A stretch of 64,000 nucleotides of DNA, taken from contig PYJC01000136.1 in the NCBI GenBank assembly GCA_003635255.1, forward strand, positions 1 through 64,000, in the 5' to 3' direction. How positions within the stretch are numbered: the stretch's first letter is position 1; each line of letters opens with the position of its first letter. Below the pieces are notes generated by a model. The model made no database searches. It saw nothing but the letters and a program-made list of their open reading frames with translations, and was not told the origin of the DNA. Source of the DNA: Candidatus Poribacteria bacterium. Lineage in GTDB: Bacteria; Poribacteria; WGA-4E; WGA-3G. The translations under genes and the position numbers were made by a program. This document shows, piece after piece, positions 2,361 through 63,305 of this stretch.

Positions 2361-2405
2361 TTATTTGCTGCTCTTAATTTCTCCCCAGGTTGTGGTGAGT
2401 TTGTC
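2361..2405 (-). other. C-terminal K[LI]..xWG[ER][IL]K motif (DKLTTTWGEIKSSK*)
   Basis: Same C-terminal motif as on three other secreted proteins in this window. Confidence 0.6.
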
Positions 2406-3182
2406 AGCCGGTTCAACAGCAAACGGATCACTTTGTCCTTTCGCAAGGCGTTCTACCTCTTTCTCAGTCAGAGCCCTGTGAAACAGCAGGAACTCATCAA
2501 GAAGCCCATTATATGCCCATGTGGGTCCAACGGCTGCATCGAACGCGGCTGCTTCCGAACCAATTCCGATAAATCCGAAGCGTGCCTGCCCTGCGCCAAT
2601 AACTTTAGCCGGCGCGCCTACCTTTGCATCTAATTTACCGTCAACGTAGATCCGTTTCTCCTCGCCATCAAAGGTTGCGACGAGATGATGCCATTTGTTA
2701 TCTGCGACATCGGTCTTGCCAAACCAATCATGGCAGCACGGACAACAGTTGTCAAATGCGACAAAAGTTGTGCCGTTATTTCCACCGACATCATCACCCA
2801 CAGCGAAACGGAAGAATTCGCTCCGATCCCAAGAAGCGATCATGCCTCGGACTTCTGTTTTAACCCAAGCGGCAAGGGTAATTTCCTCGATAGGATCTTT
2901 GTACATGTGATCCTTCACCGAAATGTATTGCGCAGCGTTACCCGGGAACTCCATACACTCTCCGACCTTGCCTTTCACAATGTTCAGATCATTGCCGTGT
3001 AGGAAGCCATCATTTCCATTCCCAGATCCGTCTAAGACATCATCACCTTTCAGTGTATCTTTGTTAAAACTATAGTAGATGATAAGTTCATCATCACTGA
3101 TGCCTTGTGCGTGGCTTGCTCCTACTGCTCCTATAAGCATCAGACTTAACACCAAAAACTTAAAAATATAATCAGTCTTCAT
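2361..3182 (-). CDS. Secreted LamG/concanavalin A-like domain protein
   Basis: Signal peptide MKTDYIFKFLVLSLMLIGAVGASHAQ; LamG signature (ISVKDHMYKDPIEEITLAAWVKTE...WHHLVATFDGEEKRIYVDGKL). Ends KLTTTWGEIKSSK. Confidence 0.85.
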   Translation of the reverse strand: MKTDYIFKFLVLSLMLIGAVGASHAQGISDDELIIYYSFNKDTLKGDDVLDGSGNGNDGFLHGNDLNIVKGKVGECMEFPGNAAQYISVKDHMYKDPIEEITLAAWVKTEVRGMIASWDRSEFFRFAVGDDVGGNNGTTFVAFDNCCPCCHDWFGKTDVADNKWHHLVATFDGEEKRIYVDGKLDAKVGAPAKVIGAGQARFGFIGIGSEAAAFDAAVGPTWAYNGLLDEFLLFHRALTEKEVERLAKGQSDPFAVEPADKLTTTWGEIKSSK

Positions 3183-8367: not shown

Positions 8368-8375
8368 GTTTAGGA

Positions 8376-12585: not shown

Positions 12586-12627
12586 TTAGTAGAGACTTTT
12601 GATGCGTCCCCACTGGATTAATTTTTG
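12586..12627 (-). other. C-terminal K[LI]..xWG[ER][IL]K motif (QKLIQWGRIKSLY*)
   Basis: Shared with three other secreted proteins in this window. Confidence 0.5.
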
Positions 12628-13296
12628 CTGTTTATTGGGTTCAATTCTCGCCGTGAAGACGAGATCAGGAATATCTTCGTATTCCTCAGTGTAACCTTCG
12701 GGGGCCCAAGTAATTTTATGTTGTAATTGCCCGTTATCGACATCGTTATAAGCGATTGCGAATCCGACCGCATTTCCCTTTCTCGCGATGTTGTCGAGCC
12801 GGAAACTGAGTTCACAGGTCTGTCCATCGTTTCCCCATTCAACGCGTGTTAGCGGAGATTTTAGTACCCCTATGCCGTTCCTGATCGGGATTTCAAAGCG
12901 GTAAAGATCATTCTTATGTCCAGAATGGTGTGGATCCAAGTAAATGATAAGATGGTCTTGTCGCAGCAGCTTCTTTTGGCGCGTTTCGATTTGATCATCA
13001 ATGAGTTTAACCGCTACATAAAGAAACCCACTCCGCCAGACGGCTGCGAATGAACCACTAAAATCAGAGGATTCGGGTAGATGTTCCCCGGTAACTAAAT
13101 CCTGATCCAGTTTTCCAGGGATCGCTTTCTCCCAGACGGGATCATCAAGATAACCATCTACGATAGGTGCAACGGGTACAAGTTCCGCATTATATTGAAA
13201 ATTTTGAAGATTTCCACCCATGACATGCCCTAATACATAAGGCGTTATCATGAGCAGAAAGCTGATTATTACAATTATCTGTTTGTTAAGGCTCAT
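12586..13296 (-). CDS. Secreted CBM9-like (carbohydrate-binding family 9) protein
   Basis: Signal peptide; 'VAPIVDGYLDDPVWEKAIPG...FAAVWRSGFLYVAVKLIDDQI...HLIIYLDPHHSG'. Ends QKLIQWGRIKSLY. Confidence 0.75.
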   Translation of the reverse strand: MSLNKQIIVIISFLLMITPYVLGHVMGGNLQNFQYNAELVPVAPIVDGYLDDPVWEKAIPGKLDQDLVTGEHLPESSDFSGSFAAVWRSGFLYVAVKLIDDQIETRQKKLLRQDHLIIYLDPHHSGHKNDLYRFEIPIRNGIGVLKSPLTRVEWGNDGQTCELSFRLDNIARKGNAVGFAIAYNDVDNGQLQHKITWAPEGYTEEYEDIPDLVFTARIEPNKQQKLIQWGRIKSLY

Positions 13297-16885: not shown

Positions 16886-17998
16886 GTGAAATACATCCGT
16901 AATTGTGCTGGAGCTGCCCTATTCTGTCTCATCGTTTATTTTTCTGTTTTAAGTAGTGTTGCCACGGCAGCAAACACACCAGCCTCAGCAGATAGATTTT
17001 TGAAGCAATTGCTGGGGGCAGAACATCATGGGATGGGTGGCAGTTTTGTTGGCACAACCCGTGGCGCGAATGCTCTGGGTAGCAATCCTGCGGGTATCCG
17101 TGCCGCAGAGGAGAGCCAATTTGTTATTCATGCAACCCGTTTCCCACGTACCCTCGCGCTACTCTCTAAACCGAATCTTAACGCTAATTATGAAGATTAT
17201 GGTCAGTATGAACAAGGTTCCTATGGTATTGAAACCCTAAACTATATATTCCCGATGGGCAGACTCGGCACGTTTGGATTGGCACTGGCGTTTTTACAGG
17301 AGGGTCGCTTTCGGCGCGTCGATCATCAAGGAAAAGCACTTAATAGTTTTGCGGAAAATAACCTTGCCATCGGTTTCAGCTATGGATTAAATATATTGAA
17401 AGGGACGGTTATCGGGGTCGATACCAAATGGCTACGTTCCAAAGTGACAGATGTGAATGAAGTCGAACACTTGGGACACGGTTATGCTTATAATGTCGGT
17501 TTGATTCAGCAGATTGGCGATACAATTCAGATTGGCGTTGTCGCGAGGAACTTGAGTAATGGACTCTCCTTTTCAGAAGTTTCGATTCCGGATACGATGG
17601 CGCGTACAATCGTTGCTGGTATCGCGTATCAGCGTGAATTATCGGACATCGCCTTGCGAATCGGGTTAGATGCGCACCCTCCATTTCGCGATGGTGTCCG
17701 GGCAAATGTTGGGGTTGAAGTGTGGTATCGCAATCGGGTTGGCGGTAGAATTGGATACCTCAGGCACACCGAAAAGCGTCACGCGTCAGTGTTCCTTTTG
17801 GAAACTGGAGCCTTTGAAGCAGAAGAACGGCTCTGGAAAGCTGAAGGCTTGTGCTTTGGGATCGGCATCAGGTTCGGAAATATAACGCTGAACGCTGCAT
17901 ATACACCGCACTTCATACCTACCGTGACCACGGAAGAACGCATTCACATTGCTCAGGGGGCAGGTGCATACGCTTTTTCAATTGGACACACCTATTAG
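16886..17998 (+). CDS. PorV/PorQ-like outer-membrane beta-barrel protein
   Basis: Signal peptide; 'FLKQLLGAEHHGMGGSFVGTTRGANALGSNPAGIRAAEE' typical of PorV/PorQ/UPF0164 proteins. Confidence 0.75.
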   Translation: MKYIRNCAGAALFCLIVYFSVLSSVATAANTPASADRFLKQLLGAEHHGMGGSFVGTTRGANALGSNPAGIRAAEESQFVIHATRFPRTLALLSKPNLNANYEDYGQYEQGSYGIETLNYIFPMGRLGTFGLALAFLQEGRFRRVDHQGKALNSFAENNLAIGFSYGLNILKGTVIGVDTKWLRSKVTDVNEVEHLGHGYAYNVGLIQQIGDTIQIGVVARNLSNGLSFSEVSIPDTMARTIVAGIAYQRELSDIALRIGLDAHPPFRDGVRANVGVEVWYRNRVGGRIGYLRHTEKRHASVFLLETGAFEAEERLWKAEGLCFGIGIRFGNITLNAAYTPHFIPTVTTEERIHIAQGAGAYAFSIGHTY

Positions 17999-27841: not shown

Positions 27842-27902
27842 GCCGGCTGTCCCGCTTCGTTATTCTTCGCATTTTATCCAAACAAGCATTCGGCAAAAAC
27901 TG

Positions 27903-30005
27903 ATGGTTGGCATTGTCAGTTTACTCTTCTTTTCTCTTTTTGTGCCGTTAAGTATCGCCGCGCCACCGAACCCGTATCTCTTTTTTAATGAAGACTCTAC
28001 GAGTGGCGAGTTGGTACCTAAGGCACCTCAGAGTCGGATCGAATTTCTTGAAGCGTTGGAAGACTGTTGTTTCGCCAACGAGCAAGGGGTCTTGCAGTCT
28101 GATGGTATAGAATACGTTCTCGCTTTGAAAATAGATTTCAGTGACATGCCCGGACGCAGGGAGGGTGCGGCATTCGACAGATACCTCTTCGCAACAGAAG
28201 GTGTCTCGATGAAAACCTATTTCCTCGAAAATTCCTATGGACAAATGGATATCCAGCCGGGACCGATGGGAGGGGTTCTCCCGAAAGGCAATACATGGAT
28301 TCGCGCCAAAAAACCGATGACGTATTATGGTGAAGGTGTCCGAATCTTGGAGCGTTATCGGGAATTGGTTCGGGAAGCGTGTGCGGCAGTAGATGCGATT
28401 GTTGATTTTTCGCAATATGATAGAGACAAAGACGGAATTGTTGACCATGTTTTCCTAATCCATTCAGGTAATGACCAAGCCTCGACAGGTGTTATTGATT
28501 ATGACATCCAGTCTGTCCTCCTACCCGGTGTTAATGCTGTTCACGATGGGGTGCGTGTCAATACTGCCGCGATTGTTGCTGAGGAACCTGACTTTGAACA
28601 TCCACATTTAGGCATCTATTTCCACGAGTTTTTTCATGATTTCGGTGCGCCTGATGTTTATGGACTCTTCACAGGTCCGCATGACCATAAATGGGGGCTG
28701 ATGGGTGCATTCGGTCCGTATCAAGGACCTGAAGAGTTTGGCATCGGAAACGGCTTGGAACCGAGCCATATCATAGGTTATCTTAAATGGGATTTTGACG
28801 CGAGACCTCAAAATGGTCGTCTCGGTTGGATCGAACCCGTTCAGATAACCGAAAACCAGCAAATTGATGTGCCAAGTTTTGAACTCGGTCCGAAAACGAA
28901 TAAACTTTTCAAAATTGATATTCACTCGTCAGGTAATTCGGCTAACACAGAAGCAAGAGAATTTTTTCTCATAGAGAATCGGAACAAAACTTCAGGGGCA
29001 ACTTTTGATACCTACTTACCAGAATCAGGCATCTTGATTTGGCACATTGATGAAACGCGACCGTATCCACTCGGTTCTTATGATGCGTCCCATCAGATAT
29101 GGCTTGAGGACCCGACAGACCCCGAACATCTCGGTATTTACCAACAAGATGGTGTTGAATCTATCAATGTGGTAACGATCACCGAAGGTGCTGCCTATTC
29201 CTTAGATGATGGACACACGGCTTTTACGCCTGGTACCGTTCCGAATAGCAATGCGAATGATGGGACGGTAACTGGGATTTCAATAACGAATATCGGTGCT
29301 GAAGGTTTTACCATCCCGATTTTGGTGTCGTTTGGCGATACCTACGAGCCGAATGATACGATTGTGACAGCATACCCGATCACATACGGTGAGACATACG
29401 ATTCTTTTCTTTTTGACGTGAGTGATGTGCGCGATGTGTACAAGTTGGAAGTTGTCGGTGGCATAACCATTTTAGTAACTCTGGCGGATCTTCCACCGGA
29501 GACGCATTATCGGTTGTCTCTCCACACGGCGACCGGTGAAATCCGTGCGACTGGCGAAATTGCTACAGAGATCTCGGGGTTGAAACTTATTTATCAACCT
29601 GAGATGACAGAGACGGTCTACCTTGTTGTTGAATCAGATGGCGGGTTCAGTAGCGTGGATTCCTATCAGTTACGGGTAGAACAACTTGAGGCGGGAGCGT
29701 TTACTTTTGAAGAGACCCGCGTATATCCGAATCCGCTGCGTTTAGGCGATGAGATGATGACGTTTGCCTATCGACTTTCCGCCTCCCAAATTGCGGATAC
29801 CGTTAACCTTGAGATTTTTATGCCAACGGGTGCGCTTGTTTATAGAGAAATGCATCAAAATGTATTTTCACAAGGGAAATTCGAGTGGCGCGGCGCGAAT
29901 CTCAGCGGCTCTCCTGTGGCATCAGGCATCTATATTTACCGTATTTCTGCAGAGCGGGAGGGGGTCCCTGTCCAAGAAATTGGAAAGTTAAGCGTTGTGA
30001 GATAG
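27903..30005 (+). CDS. Secreted M6-like metalloprotease with FlgD/T9SS-like C-terminal domain
   Basis: ORF 27732..30005; signal peptide from M27903; 'FHEFFHDFGAPDVYG' zinc site; tail 'VYPNPLRLGDEMMTF...GIYIYRISAEREG'. Start uncertain (TTG 27834 also possible). Confidence 0.8.
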   Translation: MVGIVSLLFFSLFVPLSIAAPPNPYLFFNEDSTSGELVPKAPQSRIEFLEALEDCCFANEQGVLQSDGIEYVLALKIDFSDMPGRREGAAFDRYLFATEGVSMKTYFLENSYGQMDIQPGPMGGVLPKGNTWIRAKKPMTYYGEGVRILERYRELVREACAAVDAIVDFSQYDRDKDGIVDHVFLIHSGNDQASTGVIDYDIQSVLLPGVNAVHDGVRVNTAAIVAEEPDFEHPHLGIYFHEFFHDFGAPDVYGLFTGPHDHKWGLMGAFGPYQGPEEFGIGNGLEPSHIIGYLKWDFDARPQNGRLGWIEPVQITENQQIDVPSFELGPKTNKLFKIDIHSSGNSANTEAREFFLIENRNKTSGATFDTYLPESGILIWHIDETRPYPLGSYDASHQIWLEDPTDPEHLGIYQQDGVESINVVTITEGAAYSLDDGHTAFTPGTVPNSNANDGTVTGISITNIGAEGFTIPILVSFGDTYEPNDTIVTAYPITYGETYDSFLFDVSDVRDVYKLEVVGGITILVTLADLPPETHYRLSLHTATGEIRATGEIATEISGLKLIYQPEMTETVYLVVESDGGFSSVDSYQLRVEQLEAGAFTFEETRVYPNPLRLGDEMMTFAYRLSASQIADTVNLEIFMPTGALVYREMHQNVFSQGKFEWRGANLSGSPVASGIYIYRISAEREGVPVQEIGKLSVVR

Positions 30006-34838: not shown

Positions 34839-36446
34839 CTATCTCAGGATTGCTAACTTCTCCAGATATGTATAGGTTTCGCCTTTTGAGACGACCGAAA
34901 TATGGCACACATAAATCCCTGGCGACACTGCTAATCCATAGGAGGTTTGCTGATTCCACCACGTCCGCCAGATCGTTTGATTGAGTCGATCCGCGACCCC
35001 TTCAATCCGTTTTATGAGGTTACCGTGGGCATCATAGATCAGAATGTGCATTTCAGTGATTTCGGTATTTGCTTCAACTCGGAATTCAGTTAAACCGTCT
35101 GAACGTGCGGGGTTCGGAAAAACGACTACGTTTTTCCACGCGAAGGTTTGCGTCAAAATTACAGACTGCGCAACTGAGACAGCTCCGAGTGGGTATCGGG
35201 CTATGACTCGGAGTGTATTCTCTCCAGTTTTCAACGGCACCTTTGCTGTATAAGTTTGTGTTTCTCGGTGCAGCACCGCCTCTGTCTGGCTTGGATGGAC
35301 AATGATATCGATTGGGAAATCTGATTGGAATGTTCCGTTAATTGTTAATTCACTCTCCTGTGTCGTCGGTGGAAGTTCCAACGTCACTTGGGGTATCTGT
35401 CGGGTTGGATTAAACATGTCCGTGAGCAGGCTATCTATTGTGACAAGCACGAGTTGTGTCACTTTTCTCACCAAACCGAAGTTCACTTTATCGGCGGTAT
35501 CCGCAGCGGTGTGATAGAAGGGATTGGCATCGTAATTTTGGGAATCTCGCCAGGGTGTTGAACTCTCAGTTAAAGTGACGGCGTTGTATCCGTTGTCCCA
35601 GAAGGGTTTGTGGGAGGAAATATCGATGAATTCGTCTTGTGTGCGGCGAATTTTCAAGCCGACATTGTACCATCCGTTTGCAATGATAAGCGCGCGGCTG
35701 ATCCAAGCGGAATCGTTATTGGCAACGATTTCAACGAGATCGCTTTTCCAATTGAAACCGAACATGTCTAAGTTAAAAACAGAGACGATGTTATCACGGG
35801 TCGTAACAGTAGCAGTTTTATCGTCCGGCTCCACCCGATTCAATACACTTTGAACATAGTTCCGACTGCCGAAAAAACCGAGTTCCTCGCCCCCTAAGGC
35901 GATAAACCTTAACTCATGGTCGTATTCATGACGGCTTAGGAGGTTCGCTATCTCCAGCATTGCTGCGACACCGGTGCCGTTATCATTTGCGCCGGGTGCA
36001 GTAGATGCTAACGGATGCCAATTCGGTTCACGTACGGCTTGTGTGTCATAATGTGCGCATACGATAAAAATACGATTACTGGTTGAACCCAACCGAGGCG
36101 GTAAAACAGCCGTGACGTTCCGAATACCACCAAAAACCTGTTCACTTACCTGTAGACGTGGGGAACGACGAAACTGACTTTTAATGTACCGTACAGCGTT
36201 TTCCGTTGCTTCGCGGTGATGCGCGCTGCGGGTCCGGTAAGCGTGGAAGTTCCCTGTACCAATGTTTTCTTGGAGTGTTATCACCTGTGCTTCAAGCGCA
36301 TCGGATTGTACGAGTGTGAGCAGTTCATCGCCGCGATGTGAAAGATTATCGTTATTTTCTGCCATAACAGACAGCGAAATACATAGAAGAAGAAGCGTAT
36401 ATTTTTTTATCGCAACTGGGGAAGGATGCCTTAATTGCCTTGACAT
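34839..36446 (-). CDS. M28-family peptidase with FlgD/T9SS-like C-terminal domain
   Basis: 'IFIVCAHYDTQA', 'GANDNGTGVAAMLE', 'ALGGEELGFFGS'; tail 'VVFPNPARSDGLTEF...SPGIYVCHISVVSKG'. Confidence 0.85.
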   Translation of the reverse strand: MSRQLRHPSPVAIKKYTLLLLCISLSVMAENNDNLSHRGDELLTLVQSDALEAQVITLQENIGTGNFHAYRTRSAHHREATENAVRYIKSQFRRSPRLQVSEQVFGGIRNVTAVLPPRLGSTSNRIFIVCAHYDTQAVREPNWHPLASTAPGANDNGTGVAAMLEIANLLSRHEYDHELRFIALGGEELGFFGSRNYVQSVLNRVEPDDKTATVTTRDNIVSVFNLDMFGFNWKSDLVEIVANNDSAWISRALIIANGWYNVGLKIRRTQDEFIDISSHKPFWDNGYNAVTLTESSTPWRDSQNYDANPFYHTAADTADKVNFGLVRKVTQLVLVTIDSLLTDMFNPTRQIPQVTLELPPTTQESELTINGTFQSDFPIDIIVHPSQTEAVLHRETQTYTAKVPLKTGENTLRVIARYPLGAVSVAQSVILTQTFAWKNVVVFPNPARSDGLTEFRVEANTEITEMHILIYDAHGNLIKRIEGVADRLNQTIWRTWWNQQTSYGLAVSPGIYVCHISVVSKGETYTYLEKLAILR

Positions 36447-45841: not shown

Positions 45842-46651
45842 ATGACTAAGGCATCTTCTATACTTTTGGTTGCATTCATGAGTGTAGTGCTCTGCTTAGG
45901 CGTTGCTATCTCTGGCGATTCAAAAATTGATGAGGACACGATCTTGGGTGTCTGGCTCTTTGATGAAGACATCAAAAACAGTGTTAGGGACGCTTCAGGG
46001 AACGGTCATGATGGACAGGTCTTTGGGAAGCCTAAAGTTGTTGATGGGAAATTCGGAAAGGCACTCTCTTTTAGTGGTGCTGGCGATAAAATCGAGATTC
46101 CACACGATGACGTGTTCACGACCCCGACGTTTACGCTGATGGCGTGGGTCAATGTTGAAGACCTTGCCACGGGTTGGCGGATGATTGTGGGTAAAGATGC
46201 TTGGCCTGATCGCAACTACGCGATGTTCGTTCATAGGGATAATGGGCGGCTGCATTGTGCTTTCGGCACCCCAGTTTTACGGGATCGCGGAAACTTTAAT
46301 AGTAAAGGATTGATCGTTGATGGGACGTGGCATCATGTGGCTTTCACTTATGATAAGAAGGTCCGACGCGCGTATATTGATGGCGAACTTGATACAGAAG
46401 TGCCGTTAGGTATTGATCCGGGAACGCCACAGATTCCTGTGATTATCAGTCGTCCGCCGTTTAAGGGATTAATCGATGAAGTCTACGTCGGTAATGTGGC
46501 TGTAGAATCGGAAGATGTGAAAACGGCGGCGGAAAAAGGGTTAGCAGAGACTTTGAGACTTGCACGGGATGTAGATTCTCAAGGGAAATTGACGACCCGT
46601 TGGGGTGAGATTAAGAACGACTTTGGCAACATTTACAAAACCTATCGTTAG
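45842..46651 (+). CDS. Secreted LamG/concanavalin A-like domain protein
   Basis: 'FTLMAWVNVEDL', 'WHHVAFTYDKKVRRAYIDGEL'; paralogous to 2361..3182. Confidence 0.85.
   Translation: MTKASSILLVAFMSVVLCLGVAISGDSKIDEDTILGVWLFDEDIKNSVRDASGNGHDGQVFGKPKVVDGKFGKALSFSGAGDKIEIPHDDVFTTPTFTLMAWVNVEDLATGWRMIVGKDAWPDRNYAMFVHRDNGRLHCAFGTPVLRDRGNFNSKGLIVDGTWHHVAFTYDKKVRRAYIDGELDTEVPLGIDPGTPQIPVIISRPPFKGLIDEVYVGNVAVESEDVKTAAEKGLAETLRLARDVDSQGKLTTRWGEIKNDFGNIYKTYR
46583..46651 (+). other. C-terminal K[LI]..xWG[ER][IL]K motif (GKLTTRWGEIKNDFGNIYKTYR*)
   Basis: Shared with three other secreted proteins. Confidence 0.6.
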
Positions 46652-51450: not shown

Positions 51451-52561
51451 GTCTCCTCACAAGATAGGATTCGTTTTCCCGAGCTGATATTTTAGCTTCA
51501 TATTTATAGTTTTCCAATGTCCGCGGTTCCTGAAACCATTGAATGAGATCTCCAAGGTTTGTAAGTATATGTAACTGTGTTACTAAACGAATACATAGAT
51601 ACATCGCTCCTTGCGTGAGAGGGATCTTTGGAATGCTTCTCCGAAATTCATTAAACGCTATAGGAAGGTATTGTTTACAAGCTTCTCGGCGAACCTCATC
51701 ATCAACGTCTTGCCACTGCCGAAAATCAGGTGCAGAAATCATGAGTGGACTGATGTCTGAAAAAAACTGGGCACTAAACCATGCATCTGTAACATCAGAT
51801 ATATTAGGATTTTTCAATTTTTGGAAGGTTTTTGTCAAATTCTGCCCAGTTTCCGTAAGTTGATAAATAAAACTATTTTTTTCTTTTCTTAAATCTAGCA
51901 ACCCAAGATCTAAAAGCCAGTGTAAACGAGGCGGAATGATGTAAGCAGCATAACCTTCGGGCTTTTTCCATTCTGTCGTAACCTCAACCTGTCTGTCATG
52001 TAAGCGATTTACGATGTGTCCTTGTGAACTTGTCGAAATTTTTGCTTTGAGGCGGTCTAGAAAAGCCTGTTGAAAATTCTTTTGTAAATTTTTGAGACTG
52101 GGGTTCTCAAGCGATTGGAGCATATTGACGATAGTTAGCAGCGTATCAGCATCTTGCTGTAGGATCTGGTAGATGTAAAAAATTCTTTCATCGTGATCAA
52201 GATATAATGAGTTTAATTCATTGTTAGGTTTATCGTTGAGCAGACTCAAGAGAACGCGTCCAATTCTTGTTAATTGATAAACATTTGATATTTTGGAGAG
52301 TAATCCGAATTTAACAGTTAAGTCAAGATAACTAGTACTTAATAAAGTCATCCCTTTTTTCTCTAGGGAGTGTATCGTCCCTGTATGGTATTTATAATTT
52401 TCAAGGCTGTTTGCCTGAGTATTGCTCCAATCTTTTAATTTACTCACGAAAATATCTTCATTCAATGGACGTTCTCCTACAAGTCGTAAAATTTGCGATA
52501 GGTACCTAAGTCTGCGGACGAGTGAGCTGGAGACTACAATCTCACGATAAGAAATTTTCAT
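51443..52561 (-). CDS. Winged-helix-like protein, first gene of triad
   Basis: Leu-rich wHTH-like segments 'YLDLTVKFGLLSKISNVYQLTRIGRVLLSLL' and 'LHWLLDLGLLDLRKEKNSFIYQLTETGQNLTKTF'. Confidence 0.6.
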   Translation of the reverse strand: MKISYREIVVSSSLVRRLRYLSQILRLVGERPLNEDIFVSKLKDWSNTQANSLENYKYHTGTIHSLEKKGMTLLSTSYLDLTVKFGLLSKISNVYQLTRIGRVLLSLLNDKPNNELNSLYLDHDERIFYIYQILQQDADTLLTIVNMLQSLENPSLKNLQKNFQQAFLDRLKAKISTSSQGHIVNRLHDRQVEVTTEWKKPEGYAAYIIPPRLHWLLDLGLLDLRKEKNSFIYQLTETGQNLTKTFQKLKNPNISDVTDAWFSAQFFSDISPLMISAPDFRQWQDVDDEVRREACKQYLPIAFNEFRRSIPKIPLTQGAMYLCIRLVTQLHILTNLGDLIQWFQEPRTLENYKYEAKISARENESYLVRRHA

Positions 52562-52791
52562 AAGTGTTAACCCTGCTTCTACACGAATAGTCAGGTCAAG
52601 GACTGCTTGCTGTCTGTAACCCCAATTCCTGTGCTACCGTTGTTTTGAATATAAAAATGTGTAGTTTCGGAAAGTGAGTGTTCCCAAGTTTAATATGATA
52701 AACAAAGATATTTAGTTTCATCTAGCCATCACCAATTGATATTCTAACAGGAGTTACGAGTGATCGCAAGTAAAAAACTGAAGTGTAGAGA

Positions 52792-52836
52792 AAAAATGTG
52801 ACATTTTTAGTTGAACTATGCTATACTTTATAGCAT
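52792..52836 (+). promoter_or_regulatory. Predicted dndC promoter with two palindromic operators
   Basis: AAAAATGT-G-ACATTTTT (52792-52808) and ATGCTATA-CTT-TATAGCAT (52818-52836); GTGACA-N18-TATACT; dndC ATG at 52883. Confidence 0.6.
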
Positions 52837-52882
52837 GTGTTAGGAAATCAACCACTATTTTCTTTTCGTAAGGAAGTAACTC

Positions 52883-54292
52883 ATGGCAGAAGCACCGTAC
52901 ACCATCTTCAATTCGCGCACTGTTGATGATATCCACCGCGAAATTCAAGAAGTCTATCTTGAAAACGCAAGACCGTGGGTTATTGGGTACAGCGGTGGAA
53001 AAGATTCAACGACCGCCCTGCAACTCGTTTGGGATGCCCTCGCTGGCCTGTCGTCAGAACAACGGAAGTACCCAGTCTATGTGATTTCGTCCGATACACT
53101 TGTTGAAACACCAGTTATTGTTAGTTACATTACTGGGACTTTAGATCGGATCAAGATGACCGCGCGCAAAGAGAAGATGCCATTTGAGACCTCGCTTGTA
53201 TATCCAAAAACTGAGGACACTTTCTGGGTTTCTCTCATAGGTAAGGGTTATCCGGCACCGTATAATCGTTTGCGTTGGTGCACGGACAAAATGAAAATTC
53301 GACCTGCCAATAGATTTATCTTAGAAAAAGCTTCTGAATATGGGGAAGTTATCCTTGTACTTGGCGTGCGTAAAGGCGAAAGTGCTACACGCGACCAAGT
53401 AATGAACCTACATCAAACTAAAAATTCGTTACTTTTGCGGCATAGTTCACTTCCTAACGCATTTGTTTATGCACCAATCGTTGATTTTAGTCTTAACGAT
53501 GTTTGGATGTATTTATTAAGTAACCCTCCGCCGTGGGGTGGAGATCATAGACAACTTGTTACACTCTACCGAAACGCTAATGGACAAGGGGAGTGTCCTC
53601 TGGTTGTTGATGAGACAACTCCATCCTGTGGTAACAGTCGATTTGGGTGTTGGACTTGTACCGTTGTTTCTAGTAGTCATTCAATGGAGGGATTAATTGA
53701 CAGTGGTGAAGATTGGATGCTACCATTGCTGGAGTTTCGAGAGATCCTCATGGAGACTCAAGTCCCTGAGAGAAAGGCGAATGTTCGCGAACATAAACGG
53801 CGCAACGGTAGAATTACAAGAGATAAAGACACTGGCAAATTAGTACGTGGTCCCTATACCCTTGAATTTTGTAAGGAACTTTTAAGAAAGCTTCTCGAAA
53901 CTCAACAGAAAGTTCGTTCGATAGGACCTGATCCGAATATTGAGCTTATCACACATGCAGAACTTGAGGAAATTCGCAAAATTTGGCGGACAGAGCGCCA
54001 AGATTGGGAAGATGCGGTGCCACAGATTTATGCGGATGTTATTGGTGAGTATGAATGGATTATTGATGATACAACATCCTTTTCAGCAGCAGATAAGGTG
54101 TTATTGTCTTCAATTTGCAATGAAAAGAAAATCCCTGTCACCCTTGTGGCGAAATTGTTGGATACAGAGCGACAAATGGATGGAATGAGTCGGCGGGCAA
54201 GAATCCAATCTCAAATTGATGCGGTTTTCAGTGAAGATTGGGAATCAGAAGAAGAGATCCTCGCTACCCTAAGTGTTAATAATCAACAATGA
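52883..54292 (+). CDS. dndC: DNA phosphorothioation protein DndC (PAPS reductase-like)
   Basis: 'WVIGYSGGKDSTTALQLVWDAL', 'LRWCTDKMKIRP', 'GNSRFGCWTCTVV'. Confidence 0.93.
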   Translation: MAEAPYTIFNSRTVDDIHREIQEVYLENARPWVIGYSGGKDSTTALQLVWDALAGLSSEQRKYPVYVISSDTLVETPVIVSYITGTLDRIKMTARKEKMPFETSLVYPKTEDTFWVSLIGKGYPAPYNRLRWCTDKMKIRPANRFILEKASEYGEVILVLGVRKGESATRDQVMNLHQTKNSLLLRHSSLPNAFVYAPIVDFSLNDVWMYLLSNPPPWGGDHRQLVTLYRNANGQGECPLVVDETTPSCGNSRFGCWTCTVVSSSHSMEGLIDSGEDWMLPLLEFREILMETQVPERKANVREHKRRNGRITRDKDTGKLVRGPYTLEFCKELLRKLLETQQKVRSIGPDPNIELITHAELEEIRKIWRTERQDWEDAVPQIYADVIGEYEWIIDDTTSFSAADKVLLSSICNEKKIPVTLVAKLLDTERQMDGMSRRARIQSQIDAVFSEDWESEEEILATLSVNNQQ

Positions 54293-56313
54293 TCCTTCAT
54301 AAACTTACTCTCAACAATGTTGGTTTGTTCAGTAAACCACAAACTGCTCACCTTACACCAAACAATGGCAAACCTTTAATCCTGATCGGAGGGATGAACG
54401 GTACTGGTAAAACAACATTGTTGGAAGCTGTTCGTCTCTGTCTGTATGGTCGCCGAGCACTGGGATCTCGAGTTAGCCAGAATGAATACAATGAGTTCCT
54501 TGCTAAAATGATTCACAGGAACCCTAATTCAGTATTGTCGCCCGAGCAAGCGTCTGTGTCCCTTGAATTTGAATACGCTCGTAACAATGAAAAAAGGCAG
54601 TTTCGCGTTGAACGATCTTGGCAACGTTATGGTACTGTCGGCAATATTAAAGAAGTACTAACAATATACGAGAATGATGAGTTAAACACTGAATTTGACG
54701 CAGAGCATTGGCAGGACTACCTTTATGAACTGATTCCAATCGGAGTATCCCAATTTTTCTTTTTTGACGGTGAGGATATACAGAAATTGACAGACGATTC
54801 CACCCACGATTTTTCTCTCGCTGAGTCAATTAAAGCACTACTTGGAATTAACTTAGTGGAGCGATTACAATCAGATCTGCGTATCTATGCTAATCGTCTG
54901 TTCAAAAGTAATAGTCCTGAACCAGTCCAAACAGAGATTGAGACGATAGAAGCAGAAATCGCCACACTTAGGACATCGCTTACGGATGCGGAGGCACACA
55001 CGGTATCACTGCACACTCAAATTAAGGAACTAGAAGCACAGATTGCGAGACAAGAATCCCGCATCGCTGCAGAAGGCGGAAGTTATGCAGAAAAACGAGA
55101 GAGCTTGAAACTTCAACAGGAGCAGCTGTGCACTGAAATTGAAGAATTAGAAAATGAGATTCGTGATCTATGTGGAGAACTGTTTCCGTTTGCGCTAGGA
55201 TCTGATCTGCTTAAACGGTTGAGAAAACGACTCCTTAAAGAGATTGAATTAGGCGAATGGGAATCGCGAAATCGCGCTTTAAAAACCCAGAATAAGAAAC
55301 TTCTTGAGACCCTTGAATCTGGAACATTTTGGGACGATGCCTCCTTATCAGAATCACAAATTGAAATAGTTCGGTCCAAGATTGCGCCGCTTTTAAAAAT
55401 GCAACTCGAGCGTCCAGAGAAATTGCAAGCGTTCAAAAAAAAACGAGACCGCTCCATCTCAGAGTACAATCAACTGTTAAAGTGGATTGATGCTTGTCTC
55501 AACGATGTTCCCCAAAAATTTAGGACATTGGACCATACCTTGAGGGAAATACAGTTAGAACAACAAAGAGTAGAACAGGCTCTTCAGAGAGCACCAGACG
55601 AAGATATCCTGAAACCAATGATTGAAAATCTATCGTCATTAAATCAGAGTCTCGGACAATTACGCAAACAGGAGCAAGATGCTGACAGATCAATCCGTTC
55701 TTTAAATTACCAGTTAGCGGAAACGGAACGAAAACTACAAAGACTACATAATACTGAGCAATTAAGAGAAACAAACATTCAACGCCAAAAACAGGTAGAG
55801 GATGTGCAATCGGTCCTTTCTATTTATACCACTAAACTTACAGAAACAAAAATTGTGACATTGGGTAATGCTATCGTTGAAGGGTTTAATCAGCTTTCCC
55901 ATAAACCTGATCGAATTAAGCGGGTTGAACTTGACCCACGGACCTTTGCAGTCAAACTCTATGATACCGACAATCAACCGCTTTCAAAGGAAGAATTATC
56001 CGCGGGTGAAAAACAGATCTATTCAACTGCCCTACTATGGGGATTAGCAAAAACATCTGGCAAAGCACTACCAATGATTCTTGACACACCGCTTGGACGT
56101 TTAGATAGCAATCATCGTCAACTCCTAATTGAGCGTTATTTTCCCTATGCCAGCCATCAGGTGATCCTACTCTCAACCGATACCGAAATTGACAAGTCTT
56201 TCCTATCGTTATTGGAACCACATCTCTCACACACGCTTCATTTAGTGTATCAACAGGCTGAAACTCGTACGACTATAGAAGATGGGTATTTTGGAGAATT
56301 ATTATGCGATTAA
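54289..56313 (+). CDS. dndD: DNA phosphorothioation ATPase DndD (SMC/SbcC-like)
   Basis: Overlaps the dndC stop; 'LILIGGMNGTGKTTLLEAVRLCLYGRRALG', 'FFFFDGEDIQKL', 'ELSAGEKQIYSTALLWGLAKTSGKALPMILDTPLGRLDSNHR'. Confidence 0.92.
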   Translation: MILHKLTLNNVGLFSKPQTAHLTPNNGKPLILIGGMNGTGKTTLLEAVRLCLYGRRALGSRVSQNEYNEFLAKMIHRNPNSVLSPEQASVSLEFEYARNNEKRQFRVERSWQRYGTVGNIKEVLTIYENDELNTEFDAEHWQDYLYELIPIGVSQFFFFDGEDIQKLTDDSTHDFSLAESIKALLGINLVERLQSDLRIYANRLFKSNSPEPVQTEIETIEAEIATLRTSLTDAEAHTVSLHTQIKELEAQIARQESRIAAEGGSYAEKRESLKLQQEQLCTEIEELENEIRDLCGELFPFALGSDLLKRLRKRLLKEIELGEWESRNRALKTQNKKLLETLESGTFWDDASLSESQIEIVRSKIAPLLKMQLERPEKLQAFKKKRDRSISEYNQLLKWIDACLNDVPQKFRTLDHTLREIQLEQQRVEQALQRAPDEDILKPMIENLSSLNQSLGQLRKQEQDADRSIRSLNYQLAETERKLQRLHNTEQLRETNIQRQKQVEDVQSVLSIYTTKLTETKIVTLGNAIVEGFNQLSHKPDRIKRVELDPRTFAVKLYDTDNQPLSKEELSAGEKQIYSTALLWGLAKTSGKALPMILDTPLGRLDSNHRQLLIERYFPYASHQVILLSTDTEIDKSFLSLLEPHLSHTLHLVYQQAETRTTIEDGYFGELLCD

Positions 56314-56666
56314 ACCGCATTCAAATATCTGAGGATTCCCGCAATAAATTGAGCATCCTGAAAGGTCGCACTGGGTTACTGCCGAATGTTCTTAGTAGAA
56401 TTGGGTTGGTGCTCTCGCTTGCTGAATCCAGCGAACCGGTAATTGATGCGGATCCAACAGATGGATCCGATTTTAACCGCTTCACACTGATGGGAGAATG
56501 GGATTCGTTGATTGTAGCACTATTGGAGGAACGAGGAAGTACTAACGGCATGAACATGGATAATGATACCCTTGTTAAGTACTTCCGGGCTCACCTAAAT
56601 CGAGGAGTTCTATTGCTTTACAGCCGTGTAAAAGGGCTTGAGGATCTGGCGAATCTTCTGCCTTGA
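56304..56666 (+). CDS. dndE: DNA phosphorothioation protein DndE
   Basis: Overlaps dndD; 'KLSILKGRTGLLPNVLSRIGLVLSLAE...FRAHLNRGVLLLYSRVK'. Confidence 0.88.
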   Translation: MRLNRIQISEDSRNKLSILKGRTGLLPNVLSRIGLVLSLAESSEPVIDADPTDGSDFNRFTLMGEWDSLIVALLEERGSTNGMNMDNDTLVKYFRAHLNRGVLLLYSRVKGLEDLANLLP

Positions 56667-56670
56667 AATT

Positions 56671-57135
56671 CTATTGGACTGAGGGAATTATATCACTATA
56701 TGGTTCCCAGTTTAAGAGTAGATTAACTAAATTTTCAACTCTGTTACCAGGTGCATCTTCAACTTGTTCTTTAATCACAATAATTCCACCATTAGCGTAC
56801 CCCTCTGCAATACTTTGTATTTCCTTTTCATTCAATAACACTTCTGGACTCCCAGTTTTAGCAAGTGCCAAGGTACGAAGAAGGGACATGTCACCTTCTT
56901 TTAGGGTAGTTCTGGGGAAGATATTTCGCAAATTCTTTTCCAAGGGCACCCATTTTTCCTCAAGGCATCCAATCAACGCAGCCAACATAAATATGTATTT
57001 CATCTCCCTAAAAGGAGGGTATTTCTCATCCTCTTGGGATTTTCTTAAGTCTTCATAGAGTTGATGATACGACGAATCAATATTGATAAAATCTCGTGGT
57101 TGATCGGTTGTATTGATCTCAATATCTTTAGGCAT
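56671..57135 (-). CDS. Small Dnd-system-associated protein (dnd_assoc_4-like)
   Basis: 154 aa; 'FREMKYIFMLAALIGCLEEKWVPL...LLRTLALAKTGSPEVLLNEKEIQSIAEGYANGGI'; convergent with dndE. Confidence 0.6.
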   Translation of the reverse strand: MPKDIEINTTDQPRDFINIDSSYHQLYEDLRKSQEDEKYPPFREMKYIFMLAALIGCLEEKWVPLEKNLRNIFPRTTLKEGDMSLLRTLALAKTGSPEVLLNEKEIQSIAEGYANGGIIVIKEQVEDAPGNRVENLVNLLLNWEPYSDIIPSVQ

Positions 57136-57150
57136 TTATATGTTCCTTTC

Positions 57151-59082
57151 TCATTCAATTCGTTTGATAGTAGTGACACTTATCTCGTCGTCAAAACATA
57201 ACTCGTATTCTGTCCCGATTCGTGGTTCAAGGTTTCTCCATGCTTGCTCATCAGGTCTCAGTTCTTGATCTGTAACAAATAAAATCAGTTGATTAGCAAT
57301 CGCTGGAATATTTTCTGTGATGTTTTCTTTTGGTTTGTCAGAGAGTTTCGTAAAAGGAGCATCCATTACAATTGGGAAACGTTCCGCGGGTATATCGGGC
57401 AATTTTTCCTTAACTGCTACTTTTGCTAATGCCGCAATGAAGGCTAGACTCAAAACTTCACGTTCCCCCGCAGATATTTCAGAGCTGACTTGTCCATCGT
57501 ATCGGTCAATAACTTGAAGTTCGTAATCCAAACTAAAACGCACCTCACGAAATGAATTTTCCTTCCAAATTAGCCTCTTGAAAATATTACTGACTTCATT
57601 TTCAAGATTTCTTCGGATATTCTCTTCATGTGGTTCATACAATTTTTTCATTGCTGCTGCTGATTCCATAGCAAGCCGCCGACAGCGATTTAGGCGTTCT
57701 GCATCAACTTTCAAAGATTCTGCTTTATCAATTTCCTTATCTAATGCCTCTATTTCCATCTTGATTTCACGGATTTTTTCTTTGATCTGATTAATTTCCC
57801 CCTCTAAAAATCTAATCTCTCCAGTGTATTTATCCTGAGCGTTTTTATGCTTCTGAAAATCGTCGTCATCGAAATTTTGAAGGCTCCCTTTAATTTCCTC
57901 TAAACGTGCCTCATTTGCCTCAATACTCTTATCCAAGCGTTGTTCTTCACTCAATGTTGATTTAACATCAACAGGGATATTTTCAACCTTACCTTCTAAC
58001 AATCGCTTTAAACTATTTTCTGTTTCTCTTGCAGCAACACCAAACTCAGGAGAAACATTTTGCGAAATCAAATTCTGAATATGTTTATACTCAGAGCTCC
58101 CTTGATGGATAGACCGCCCACAGAGACAATACATTTGTTCAAGTATTTCATTCAAGACAGTCTCCGGGATACCGATTGGTGCTTTGCTACTTTGAAGAAT
58201 TTTTAATGCTTTTTGTATAACAGGTTTTGCTAAGGGGATATAACCATCATTGGCGAGTTCTCGAATTTTGACCTGATATTTTTCTTTTTCATTCATGTGG
58301 TGTTTGAGATCCATTATAATTTTCTTTTCTTCTTCAAAAAGTTGACGAGTGTCCTCATATTCTTGAAGTACTTTATCTATGTCCTGTTTATGCTTACGCG
58401 CAATTTTGATTTTTTCCAACCTATCGTCAACCTTTTTTCTTTCACTGAGACAGAGTGCTTCTTTTTCCTCTTTTTCATTAATTAATATCTTCAATTTGTC
58501 AGGCACATATCTTTTGAGTTTGCTCTGATAATTTTGAGCCACTTTTTCTAAATGGGTAATACCACGTTCAAACAGTTCTATTCTTAGAACATTGCGCACG
58601 GCACTCTTAATTTCTTCTTCATTTCCTTGTCTGGCAAAATTATCGATTTTTTCCCCATCAAAGAAAAAGTGGGCACTTACATCCTCCGGGATCATAGAAC
58701 GAATCTTATCTGATGCTGCAGCATCCAGATCTGGAGGCTCATTCTCTTTTTGCAGCAAAAGAGTCGTTTTATCATTGCGTAGAGATCGGCATTTTCGCAA
58801 TACTCGGTACCTAATATTCTGATCAACAATGCCTATTTCTACAGAAGTATCAGCGTTTTCTGCCTGTGCCACAACACGTCTATTTACGAATTCACGAGTG
58901 TTTCCTTTAAAAAAAGAATCTCCGTACAGACACCAGTTGAGGGCAGTAAGTAGAGAGGTTTTCCCTGTCCCGTTGATCCCTCTAATAACAGTTACATTAC
59001 AATATTCATCAGTCGCAAAGTGGATAGTTTGCTCATCATAATATGGACAGAAATTTTTCAACTTAATATAACGAAATATCAT
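57151..59082 (-). CDS. Second SMC/DndD-like AAA ATPase
   Basis: 'MIFRYIKLKNFCPYYDEQTIHF...VIRGINGTGKTSLLTALNWCLYGDSFFKG', 'AHFFFDGEKIDNFA', 'EISAGEREVLSLAFIAALAKVAVKEKLPDIPAERFPIVMDAPFTKLSDKPKEN'. Confidence 0.85.
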   Translation of the reverse strand: MIFRYIKLKNFCPYYDEQTIHFATDEYCNVTVIRGINGTGKTSLLTALNWCLYGDSFFKGNTREFVNRRVVAQAENADTSVEIGIVDQNIRYRVLRKCRSLRNDKTTLLLQKENEPPDLDAAASDKIRSMIPEDVSAHFFFDGEKIDNFARQGNEEEIKSAVRNVLRIELFERGITHLEKVAQNYQSKLKRYVPDKLKILINEKEEKEALCLSERKKVDDRLEKIKIARKHKQDIDKVLQEYEDTRQLFEEEKKIIMDLKHHMNEKEKYQVKIRELANDGYIPLAKPVIQKALKILQSSKAPIGIPETVLNEILEQMYCLCGRSIHQGSSEYKHIQNLISQNVSPEFGVAARETENSLKRLLEGKVENIPVDVKSTLSEEQRLDKSIEANEARLEEIKGSLQNFDDDDFQKHKNAQDKYTGEIRFLEGEINQIKEKIREIKMEIEALDKEIDKAESLKVDAERLNRCRRLAMESAAAMKKLYEPHEENIRRNLENEVSNIFKRLIWKENSFREVRFSLDYELQVIDRYDGQVSSEISAGEREVLSLAFIAALAKVAVKEKLPDIPAERFPIVMDAPFTKLSDKPKENITENIPAIANQLILFVTDQELRPDEQAWRNLEPRIGTEYELCFDDEISVTTIKRIE

Positions 59083-59249
59083 GATACATCAATTTCCTTT
59101 TCAATAATTCTCTGAATATCTTCAATAATACCACGAGGATTTCGGAGATGCTGCTTTTGACGTTCGGCTATAAGCACCTTACGAATTACGCTTTTTACAT
59201 GATCGGTTAAGTCCGTATCTGACTTGGATAATTGTTTTTCTTCTTTCAT
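59079..59249 (-). CDS. 56-aa small protein inside the Dnd-associated operon (absent from the ORF track)
   Basis: Hand-translated MKEEKQLSKSDTDLTDHVKSVIRKVLIAERQKQHLRNPRGIIEDIQRIIEKEIDVS*; TGATG overlap with the upstream helicase stop and overlap with the downstream ATPase start. Confidence 0.75.
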   Translation of the reverse strand: MKEEKQLSKSDTDLTDHVKSVIRKVLIAERQKQHLRNPRGIIEDIQRIIEKEIDVS

Positions 59250-61309
59250 CAAGTTTCTCCTAATACCCCTAAAAGATTGTAGTTCTTAGCAAGTTCCCAT
59301 ATTTTATCACGTGCCTCAAATTTGTTTAAAGCCATTCCAGCGAATTCGTTAAATCTCTCTAATTCCCGCGCAACAATTTTCCGCTCTGTGCGAAATGTTG
59401 CGGTTGGATATTGCCGGTAATCTATAGGTGGTACAGCGATTAGATCGTGGATCTCTGCGTGTTCTTTACCGGAGGACTGACGGAGAATTCGTCCTCGCCG
59501 CTGGATAAATTCTTTTGGGTTACTACTGCTCGCAAGGATGTAAGCCGTTCGAGTGCTTGGGACATCAACGCCTTCATCCAGACACTTCATTGCTACAAGA
59601 GCCTGAAGATGTCCAGACGCGAACATCTTTAACAGTTCTTGTCTTTCAGCAGCTGATTCTTCCGCTGTAAATTTTGCAACACGTAATCCTAAATCTGTTA
59701 ACAATTCAAGAACTGGAACGATTCGCCCAGGAGCACAATAAAACAACGTATGATGCAGTGAGTCAGTTTGGTCAGTTAACAATTCTGTTAACTTTGCTAA
59801 CTTGTTTTCGGCTCGGTTGAGTAGCGTCGCTCGTTTTATCAATAACCGTTCGAGTGCTTCACTTGTCTCACCAGATTCTGTCTGATGATAAAGTTTGGAA
59901 ATACTTTCTGTGAGACGTTCGTACGCTTCAAATTCTTCATCAGTCAATTCAACGAGATGTGGATGATAATAGTAAGGACAGAGATACCCGTTTTTAATTG
60001 CTTTGTCCAGAGAAAATTCGTAAACTGTATCTCCAAAATAGGTCTGGAGTGCAGTTGTACCTGATGCGTCAAACCAGCGGTTAGGTGTTGCTGACAAGCC
60101 GAGACGGTAATCAAAAATATCGGTTAATCTTTTGCGGCTCCGTTCTGCTCCAAGATGGTGAACCTCATCTGCTACCAAAACAGCACCACGCTTCAACTTG
60201 GATAGCAATTTCTGCATGGTCTCAGCAATAAAAGTAGTTTGTGTTGTAATCGTACAGACAACATCTCGAACACCATAATTATATCGCACTAAGGCGGTGT
60301 TAAGCCGATTCACCCAACTTTTGGAACTTTTGTATGCAAGGATCGGTTCAAATCCGAATCTGATAGCCTCTTCATACCACTGATCGACGAGGTGCTGATA
60401 TGGACACGCAATAACTACAAACAAATTTTCCTTTTCTTCCCTCAGTTTAGCAAGCGCGGAAAGAGCCGTAATAGTCTTACCAGTTCCGGTTGCCATCTCC
60501 CATAAACCACGGCATTCGTTTTCAAACCAAGCCTCAATCGCTTCAGATTGATATTTCCTTAGTACTATGTCTTTTGGCAAATAGGGAACGATCTGCTCAA
60601 TTATTTCGGGTTTATCTGTTGTCTCTACTTGTCCGGTTTCATACACTGTTTGGTGGATTAAAAGTTTTTCCGCAACAGCGTTCAGAAAGTCTATTACCTC
60701 CAACTTCTCCGTGTTATTATCCCACAACCTCGCAAAATTATCTACCTTTTGTTGGACGCGTTCTTGAGCATCATCCCACGACCAATGAACATCAATAGAT
60801 TCAAAATTGTTTAACAAACCGCCGACAGTTTCGTTCGATGAACCTGAAAATGCTACGGCGTTGTTATTATCATCTAAAAAGACTCCTGTTTTTTCGTGAT
60901 AAACAGCGTGCTGATAATTTGTGCTTAAATCGAAGGGAGATGCGATTTTAATGTCTAAATGCTCATGTGCAATTAGCCAAGTGAGCAACATTAACCTATC
61001 GTGGGAAACTTTCTCAAAATCGCAATCAAGGGAGGTATCTAAATTCTGTTCTCTTTCTTCGTAACCGCGTTGAATCGCTTCAATATCGTCGGACATTAAT
61101 TTAGGCCCCGTTACTAAACTCATTTGTCCGCCATGTCGAATAAAAGTGGATAATCCTCTCACATTTAGGGCAAGCCCATTGCTGGTAAAATAGGCTACTG
61201 CTCGCCAATATTGCGTAGCATTTTTCAGACACGGGGTATAAAAATCTGTGACGAGGTTAGCTCCATCGGAGCGATATTCATATTGCAACGAGAGTTCTTG
61301 GAGTGACAT
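59249..61309 (-). CDS. SF2 helicase with PLD-like N-terminus, probable Dnd-system restriction protein
   Basis: 'WEMATGTGKTITALSAL', 'VADEVHHLGAERS', 'RRGRILRQSSGKEHAEIHDLI'; N-terminal PLD-like 'HAVYHEKTGVFLDDNNNAVAFSGSSNETVGGLLNNFES'. Confidence 0.82.
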   Translation of the reverse strand: MSLQELSLQYEYRSDGANLVTDFYTPCLKNATQYWRAVAYFTSNGLALNVRGLSTFIRHGGQMSLVTGPKLMSDDIEAIQRGYEEREQNLDTSLDCDFEKVSHDRLMLLTWLIAHEHLDIKIASPFDLSTNYQHAVYHEKTGVFLDDNNNAVAFSGSSNETVGGLLNNFESIDVHWSWDDAQERVQQKVDNFARLWDNNTEKLEVIDFLNAVAEKLLIHQTVYETGQVETTDKPEIIEQIVPYLPKDIVLRKYQSEAIEAWFENECRGLWEMATGTGKTITALSALAKLREEKENLFVVIACPYQHLVDQWYEEAIRFGFEPILAYKSSKSWVNRLNTALVRYNYGVRDVVCTITTQTTFIAETMQKLLSKLKRGAVLVADEVHHLGAERSRKRLTDIFDYRLGLSATPNRWFDASGTTALQTYFGDTVYEFSLDKAIKNGYLCPYYYHPHLVELTDEEFEAYERLTESISKLYHQTESGETSEALERLLIKRATLLNRAENKLAKLTELLTDQTDSLHHTLFYCAPGRIVPVLELLTDLGLRVAKFTAEESAAERQELLKMFASGHLQALVAMKCLDEGVDVPSTRTAYILASSSNPKEFIQRRGRILRQSSGKEHAEIHDLIAVPPIDYRQYPTATFRTERKIVARELERFNEFAGMALNKFEARDKIWELAKNYNLLGVLGET

Positions 61310-62513: not shown

Positions 62514-63305
62514 ATGAGAAGGGTACTTTGTTTCATACCGGTTCTGGTGCTAACTTTCACGGGGTACGCATTCGGACAGGATGTCGCTGTCTTTTATGAT
62601 GCAGCTGTTGAAAATGGTGGCGGCTTGGCTGTCCCGAATCCGAGTCAGTTGGCAGAAATGATTGTAGAAGAACTTGAGGATAGAAAGTTAACTGCTGAAA
62701 TCGTGGATAGTGACGAATTAGCGGCGTATATGAAGGCGAACCCGCAGGGTATCTATATCATCACGCAAGGAAATACGCCGGGTACGATCTTTAAAAAGGA
62801 AGGCAAGAAAGACCTTGTCTATACATGGTTGAGAGAAGGTGGGATCGGCGGATTCATCGGCGATTACGCTTTCTACTACTATTGGCATAAAGGGGCGCGT
62901 GTTACCGCTGCAGGTGCCGGACAGCAGAGCGTGTTCGGAGCCACTGTCACAAATGGCACGGTTTCGCAAGTCAGCCCAACGGATCTTGGGAAGAAGTATA
63001 TCCCTTCTCTCAAGAAATGGAGTTCAAATCGTGCATCGGGTCTCGCTGTTTTGAAGGCGAACGATTTTAAGTATGAAAGTTACGCCGATGATGGTGTAAA
63101 CGCGGATCCGATTGCTTACCAAACGAAGGACATGAAGGGATGGTTTATCAATTTCCATACTTCGTGTTGCGGGACAGCGATACCCCCAAATCCGCAGATC
63201 GCTAAGGAATACGCGGAACTTATTTCAAATCGTTTTGCGACGGCAAAAGCGGTAGATCCAACCGGTAAAATTAGCGTTGTTTGGGGGCGACTCAAATCAT
63301 ATTGA
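62514..63305 (+). CDS. Secreted hypothetical protein with a GATase/ThuA-like flavour
   Basis: Signal peptide MRRVLCFIPVLVLTFTGYAFGQ; ends GKISVVWGRLKSY. Confidence 0.7.
   Translation: MRRVLCFIPVLVLTFTGYAFGQDVAVFYDAAVENGGGLAVPNPSQLAEMIVEELEDRKLTAEIVDSDELAAYMKANPQGIYIITQGNTPGTIFKKEGKKDLVYTWLREGGIGGFIGDYAFYYYWHKGARVTAAGAGQQSVFGATVTNGTVSQVSPTDLGKKYIPSLKKWSSNRASGLAVLKANDFKYESYADDGVNADPIAYQTKDMKGWFINFHTSCCGTAIPPNPQIAKEYAELISNRFATAKAVDPTGKISVVWGRLKSY
63264..63305 (+). other. C-terminal K[LI]..xWG[ER][IL]K motif (GKISVVWGRLKSY*)
   Basis: Shared with three other secreted proteins. Confidence 0.6.

Follow-up and report, generated by a model that had tools for sequence, protein, structure and literature searches.

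A short C-terminal tag on unrelated exported proteins of Candidatus Poribacteria, possibly a sorting signal

C-terminal sorting tags on many unrelated exported proteins are known from the PEP-CTERM/exosortase, GlyGly-CTERM/rhombosortase and LPXTG/sortase systems, all of which are tripartite and combine a membrane helix with a dedicated membrane enzyme. In the MYXO-CTERM/myxosortase system (TIGR03901) a short tag for surface sorting is universal in one phylum and has dozens of carriers; it consists of a Cys motif, a TM helix and an Arg-rich end. The C-terminal domains (CTDs) of the T9SS (types A, B and C; TIGR04183, PF18962, PF13585) are signals on Sec-exported cargo with many unrelated domains, occur in dozens per genome and carry a conserved Lys near the end, within an Ig-like fold of 70-100 aa with the motifs PNP..., G-Y and K...K. 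The last 22 residues of one such CTD suffice for GFP secretion, for which the conserved lysines are needed (PMC10202324), and a short T9SS signal is therefore conceivable. Dockerin/cohesin termini, finally, rely on a paired EF-hand-like repeat.

Poribacteria are abundant, uncultured sponge symbionts, and we know of no description of their surface proteome. Here we report a peptide of about 18 residues, [LF][AP]V[ED]Px[GD]KL[AT]TTW[GA]x[LI]K, near the stop codon of exported proteins of this phylum. It shares the broad range of unrelated exported carriers with the sortase-type tags and the phylum-wide occurrence with MYXO-CTERM, but has neither the membrane helix of the former nor the Cys, TM segment and cytoplasmic basic cluster of the latter. 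With T9SS CTDs it has in common the type of cargo, the Lys near the end, the copy number and, in these genomes, the presence of SprA, C25 sortase-like and PorV-like machinery; unlike them it is 18 aa long with a W-G core and no fold, has no sequence similarity to a CTD, and the tagged window proteins gave no Pfam or NCBIfam CTD match. Like dockerins it is one of several alternative C-terminal modules on exported homologues in this genome, but without Asp-rich Ca loops. A C-terminal sorting tag that occurs throughout a phylum with neither a transmembrane helix nor a folded domain seems not to have been described before. The earlier note on this DNA knew of no described signal with such a consensus, and we found none either: no Pfam or NCBIfam model matched in scans of the window proteins and of a consensus-like peptide, a PDB profile search with the tag gave chance-level matches only, and typical tag strings were not found in the literature, where a query combining Poribacteria with T9SS also returned nothing relevant. 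We lean towards the inference that the tag is a short C-terminal sorting signal of Poribacteria ('WG-CTERM'), possibly for the T9SS; that it sorts proteins to the envelope or surface in some way is inferred with good confidence. Both inferences are drawn from sequence alone, without experiment, localisation or proteomic data.

The window, by which we mean the whole stretch of 64,000 nt that was analysed, lies on contig C136 of a 5.38 Mb Ca. Poribacteria genome in 178 contigs. Four ORFs with similar tails had been pointed out in it, and they are present as claimed, ending in AVEPADKLTTTWGEIKSSK (LamG, 2361-3182), RIEPNKQQKLIQWGRIKSLY (CBM9-like, 12586-13296; atypical), DVDSQGKLTTRWGEIKNDFGNIYKTYR (LamG, 45842-46651) and AVDPTGKISVVWGRLKSY (62514-63305); the fourth gene ends with the 42 nt of the cited segment 63264-63305. 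The four are a small part of the whole, since a profile search found at least 150 carriers in this genome. The tags of the two paralogous genes next to 62514-63305 fall outside the window, at C136:64430 and C136:65308. The features of the window are listed in Table 1.

Table 1. Tagged proteins, their tags and T9SS-type features in the window
Feature	Position	Strand	Remarks
C-terminal tag of 62514-63305	63246..63296	+	KAVDPTGKISVVWGRLK, then SY-stop; body without Pfam family
Tagged exported protein, 263 aa	62514..63305	+	First of three adjacent tagged paralogous genes
Tag of LamG protein 2361-3182	2373..2423	-	FAVEPADKLTTTWGEIK, then SSK-stop
Exported LamG_3 protein	2361..3182	-	Pfam domain ends at residue 243/273, before tag
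Atypical tag of CBM9-like protein 12586-13296	12598..12648	-	RIEPNKQQKLIQWGRIK, then SLY-stop
Exported CBM9_1-like protein	12586..13296	-	Domain match ends at residue 200/236
Tag of LamG protein 45842-46651	46565..46615	+	RDVDSQGKLTTRWGEIK, then 11-residue tail
Exported LamG_3 protein	45842..46651	+	Domain ends at residue 226/269
PorV/PorQ-family outer-membrane protein (T9SS-type)	16886..17998	+	NF033709, E=2.2e-24, 86.6 bits, just below 90-bit cut-off
T9SS type-A-like CTD on M6 peptidase 27732-30005	29724..30002	+	Alternative terminus to tag
T9SS type-A-like CTD on M28 peptidase 34839-36446	34842..35111	-	Alternative terminus to tag

When 113 strictly spaced tags were aligned on the W, the information content stayed near background up to position -13 and rose abruptly at W-12. 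From there the residues are [LF]-12, [AP]-11, V-10 (109/113), [ED]-9, [PA]-8, x, [GD]-6, K-5 (111/113), L-4 (106/113), [AT]-3, T-2, T-1, W0, [GA]+1, x, [LI]+3 and K+4. The search expression fixed W, [GA] and the terminal K/R, together with hydrophobic and K/R classes at -5, -4 and +3, so that the invariance of these positions arises partly by construction; V-10, [ED]-9, P-8, [GD]-6 and T-2/T-1 were left free. The consensus first proposed, K[LI]..xWG[ER][IL]K, therefore describes a real core of a longer motif of about 18 aa that starts with [LF]xV[ED]P; its [ER] after WG did not hold up, as that position is free, and W may also be followed by A. In the strictly spaced set the tag ends 1-11 residues before the stop, with a variable tail that is often basic or polar; the distance reaches 17 residues in one further LamG protein (L056) and falls to 0 in some deep-branching genomes. 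No transmembrane helix follows the tag within these 0-17 mostly polar residues.

The motif is far more frequent than chance would allow. Written as a degenerate DNA pattern, K-[hydrophobic or similar]-xxx-W-G-x-[hydrophobic or similar]-K had 105 matches genome-wide against 3 when the pattern was reversed. The weakest of the at least 150 matches counted with the 18-position profile in this genome had E=1.6e-4. Among the ORFs of about 1 Mb of sampled sequence, the string 'KL.TTW' was confined to the last 20 residues, where it occurred 43 times, and was absent from shuffled proteins, while 'WG.[LIVMF]K' occurred 92 times at the end, 4 times elsewhere and 7 times in shuffles; the sampled stretches had been picked around pattern matches. 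The numerous tandem paralogous copies might still suggest a chance origin, or a mobile DNA repeat that is dispersed in the genome and translated where genes end. However, the tag stands in one frame only, at the stop, and the excess over the control pattern recurs in every phylum genome searched (below). Synonymous codons inside the tag track genome usage, third positions stay close to background, and tags are no more alike in their nucleotides (63% identity) than in their amino acids (67%); it is thus the peptide that is conserved and selected, and not a DNA repeat. The codon usage rules out a repeat origin, and we give chance or a mobile repeat practically no credence.

The carriers were then characterised by export and fold. 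A broader regular expression yielded 140 tagged ORFs in the sampled sequence, and signal peptides were called by a home-made heuristic applied alike to tagged and untagged ORFs. This crude call was positive in about 129 of the 140, against 237 of 808 untagged ORFs, which is the enrichment over cytosolic proteins that a sorting signal had been predicted to show. Seven tagged ORFs without a call were inspected: one is a false positive, one a 5'-truncated gene, and several have an evident hydrophobic N-terminus. Pfam searches on 99 carriers gave LamG_3 (49), PD40/TolB propellers (14), 3-keto-disaccharide hydrolase (5), kelch (2), and CBM9 and others, with many carriers lacking a Pfam family. Carriers measure 217-408 aa in the sampled genome and up to about 590 aa for some in the divergent genome G011.

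When the proteins were instead searched by their bodies, the tag was found in 71 of 74 LamG proteins (70 by regular expression plus the long-tailed L056), in all 11 of the 3-keto-disaccharide hydrolases and in 23 of 38 propellers. All 23 tagged propellers have a signal peptide, and none of the 9 propellers without a signal-peptide call is tagged; some untagged exported propellers end in a T9SS CTD and one in a dockerin-like repeat. Three kinds of terminus thus alternate on exported homologues: the tag, a T9SS domain and a dockerin-like repeat. In the 105 C-terminal tags that these body searches recovered, W was not replaced in any family member. The third type of C-terminus in this genome, with dockerin-like DxNxDGxVNxxDL repeats, occurs on the exported proteins L055:4159-4965 and L068:1726-2898. 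One LamG frame (L077:11319-11942) stops about 100 bp before a tag that lies in another frame (G000:C152:12041-12070), an apparent frameshift or pseudogene.

As LamG proteins make up about half of the carriers, the tag could be imagined as an inheritance from a single ancestral domain whose final conserved strand or helix has survived in diverged LamG-like proteins. Several observations speak against this: propeller, kelch, hydrolase and CBM9 carriers are not homologous, Pfam matches to LamG and CBM9 stop well ahead of the tag, nothing is conserved upstream of W-12, and LamG domains in long proteins of the same genome go without the tag. A single shared terminal domain, which would have refuted the original suggestion, is excluded by the information rise at W-12 together with the several unrelated Pfam folds; the shared-domain explanation was rejected on these grounds and descent from one domain is regarded as very improbable. 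The tag is an exported-protein-specific, phylum-wide C-terminal motif under protein-level selection and independent of fold. It satisfies the broad criterion for a C-terminal sorting signal, in that carriers with unrelated domains combine a signal peptide with a fixed motif at the C-terminus, and no mid-protein occurrence, another possible refutation, was seen except directly before a T9SS CTD. The suggestion of a sorting, anchoring or processing signal that is not part of a fold is supported, although which of these processes it serves is still inferred.

The DNA pattern was positive in all 84 phylum genomes searched, with 5-122 matches each against 0-3 for the control. Five other Poribacteria, among them the two deepest branches and the two genomes poorest in the DNA pattern, gave 52, 78, 88, 102 and 145 matches to the 18-position profile. 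It had no match in 38 genomes from outside the phylum (Chloroflexota, Bacteroidota, Acidobacteriota, Thaumarchaeota and others), the nearest sister phyla not being among them. The tag is plainly visible in deep-branching genomes (e.g. ...SVEPAGKLAITWGGLK-stop), and in G011 it frequently has WA instead of WG. Export of the carriers, placement near the stop, several unrelated folds, and universality and specificity in the phylum all support the tag as a signal.

The note had advised looking for a co-occurring sortase, rhombosortase or T9SS component. Sortase (PF04203) and exosortase (PF09721) were found in 0 of 21 Poribacteria genomes with positive controls, and both were rejected as readers; rhombosortase and myxosortase were outside this search. 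T9SS components, on the other hand, were found. SprA-like proteins were detected in 80 of 81 phylum genomes (E=1.4e-46 for the protein of this genome, G000:C71, L173:7741-14364:-) and C25/PorU-like proteins in 81 of 81, with 2 of 14 control genomes also weakly positive; matches to both were mostly under the curated cut-offs, yet with strong E-values. PorV/PorQ-like proteins exceeded the curated cut-off in 81 of 81 genomes, with 8-24 matches each. This genome has about 70 type-A-like CTD proteins and a 2,095-aa C25 protein with a CTD of its own (L175:6713-14019), whose gene is directly followed, in porU-porV style, by that of a likely 339-aa outer-membrane barrel. A PorM/GldM search had no match in any genome, hence none in Poribacteria, and being empty everywhere it says nothing on the presence of the motor. 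Judged by these homologies, an outer-membrane branch of the T9SS with SprA, C25 sortase-like and PorV-like proteins is present phylum-wide, which bears on the report of Kamke et al. 2014 that Poribacteria have Por-type CTDs and no structural genes of the Por system (PMC3909097). The gene immediately upstream of sprA encodes a tagged LamG protein in the four genomes sampled from this genus (L158, L167, L170, L173) and in none of 16 others; as this linkage is limited to the genus, it is not used as support.

That the T9SS is the machine reading the tag remains tentative, and we put it at somewhat less than an even chance. The T9SS and the tag are both universal in the phylum, and their co-occurrence therefore cannot tell them apart. 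A dedicated, unrecognised anchoring or processing system unrelated to the T9SS could read the tag instead, such as a transpeptidase in the periplasm or at the surface, or a docking protein to which the tail binds. The tag is phylum-specific and the T9SS is not, T9SS-bearing phyla such as Bacteroidota being without the tag, and the strong conservation of V, K, L, W and K ahead of a free tail points to a site for specific binding or enzymatic action. No protein of the sampled set ends in both tag and CTD, but an FG-GAP/UnbV-like protein (L198:975-2855:+; orthologue L199:2233-4098:-) carries TAVEPIGKQTTTWGRIKAAEVFQ immediately before a complete type-A CTD. Under a dedicated system the tag in such proteins would be the mature C-terminus after CTD removal, and the intact tag fits anchoring at this new C-terminus at least as well as it fits a signal for secretion. 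Against a dedicated system stand the absence of sortase and exosortase from the 21 genomes, the lack of a transmembrane helix to hold the substrate for an intramembrane sortase, and the loss of W in 2 of 4 pre-CTD tags. We regard such a system as unlikely, while keeping it in view.

These 4 tag-like stretches were found at the CTD junctions of 37 inspected CTD proteins, W being replaced by L in two of them, as if the CTD had taken over the function of the tag. The CTD proteins L045 and L211 have tag-like or decayed tags at this junction. A general pre-CTD linker was rejected as an explanation of the tag, since 33 of the 37 lack it. The numbers are small; read most simply, they suggest that a CTD was on occasion appended to a tagged protein, whose tag could then decay. 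This would fit overlapping functions of tag and CTD; the intact pre-CTD tag agrees equally well with anchoring once the CTD has been removed.

The tail might also have no part in trafficking and be a non-covalent assembly motif (docking to a fimbria, S-layer or complex scaffold) or an amphipathic W/K-rich helix at an interface. Most carriers are binding domains of lectin-like or propeller type, dockerin-like termini are another alternative in the same genome, and low-confidence models show TWGxLK as a short helix. However, the AlphaFold models of two carriers (mean pLDDT 47.8 and 40.5) gave no usable structure of the tag and are too poor to be relied on, membrane affinity would not require so strict a register over 18 residues, V[ED]P and K included, and the tag alternates with other C-terminal sorting modules. 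We consider a pure assembly role distinctly improbable.

Returning to a sorting signal, the tagged proteins are inferred from their sequence to leave the cytoplasm via Sec with a cleavable N-terminal signal peptide, with the tail [LF]xV[ED]PxGKLxTTW[GA]x[LI]K presumably sticking out behind the last domain. Because the tag is conserved on unrelated folds, it may be recognised by one receptor common to all carriers, which would deliver or hold them at the outer membrane or cell surface. With less certainty, the most likely receptor would be a carrier of the T9SS branch, such as one of the PorV/PorQ-like barrels, and the tag a minimal, domain-less counterpart of the CTD for small cargo of about 220-430 aa. 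The chances appear evenly balanced that a phylum-wide, transmembrane-free and fold-free 18-residue signal is read by an unrecognised machine, either a new T9SS carrier class or a separate system, and sorts 150 or more proteins of each genome to the envelope or the surface that faces the sponge host. The tag offers a sequence handle for directly predicting the exported or surface set, at least 150 proteins strong in this genome, and gives the search for a receptor a concrete target; if it is a sorting signal, it adds a class without the membrane helix usual in sortase-type tags.

Other features of the window were recognised by eye. The region 49613-61309 looks like a phosphorothioation (Dnd-type) defence island with DndC-like (52883-54292) and DndD-like (54289-56313) genes, a further SMC-like ATPase and a DEAD-type helicase; the closest dndC relatives (at most 76% identity) are from Candidatus Poribacteria MAGs, with others in Chloroflexota, Bacteroidota and Thaumarchaeota. 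Within 9 kb there are four genes that appear phytanoyl-CoA dioxygenase-like (1533-2306, 4422-5258, 6647-7432 and 8301-9197), an expansion of this family having been reported for Poribacteria. A 766-aa flotillin-like protein (24158-26458) contains numerous near-repeats of an EREIEKNLVVETAQIxQ-type unit.
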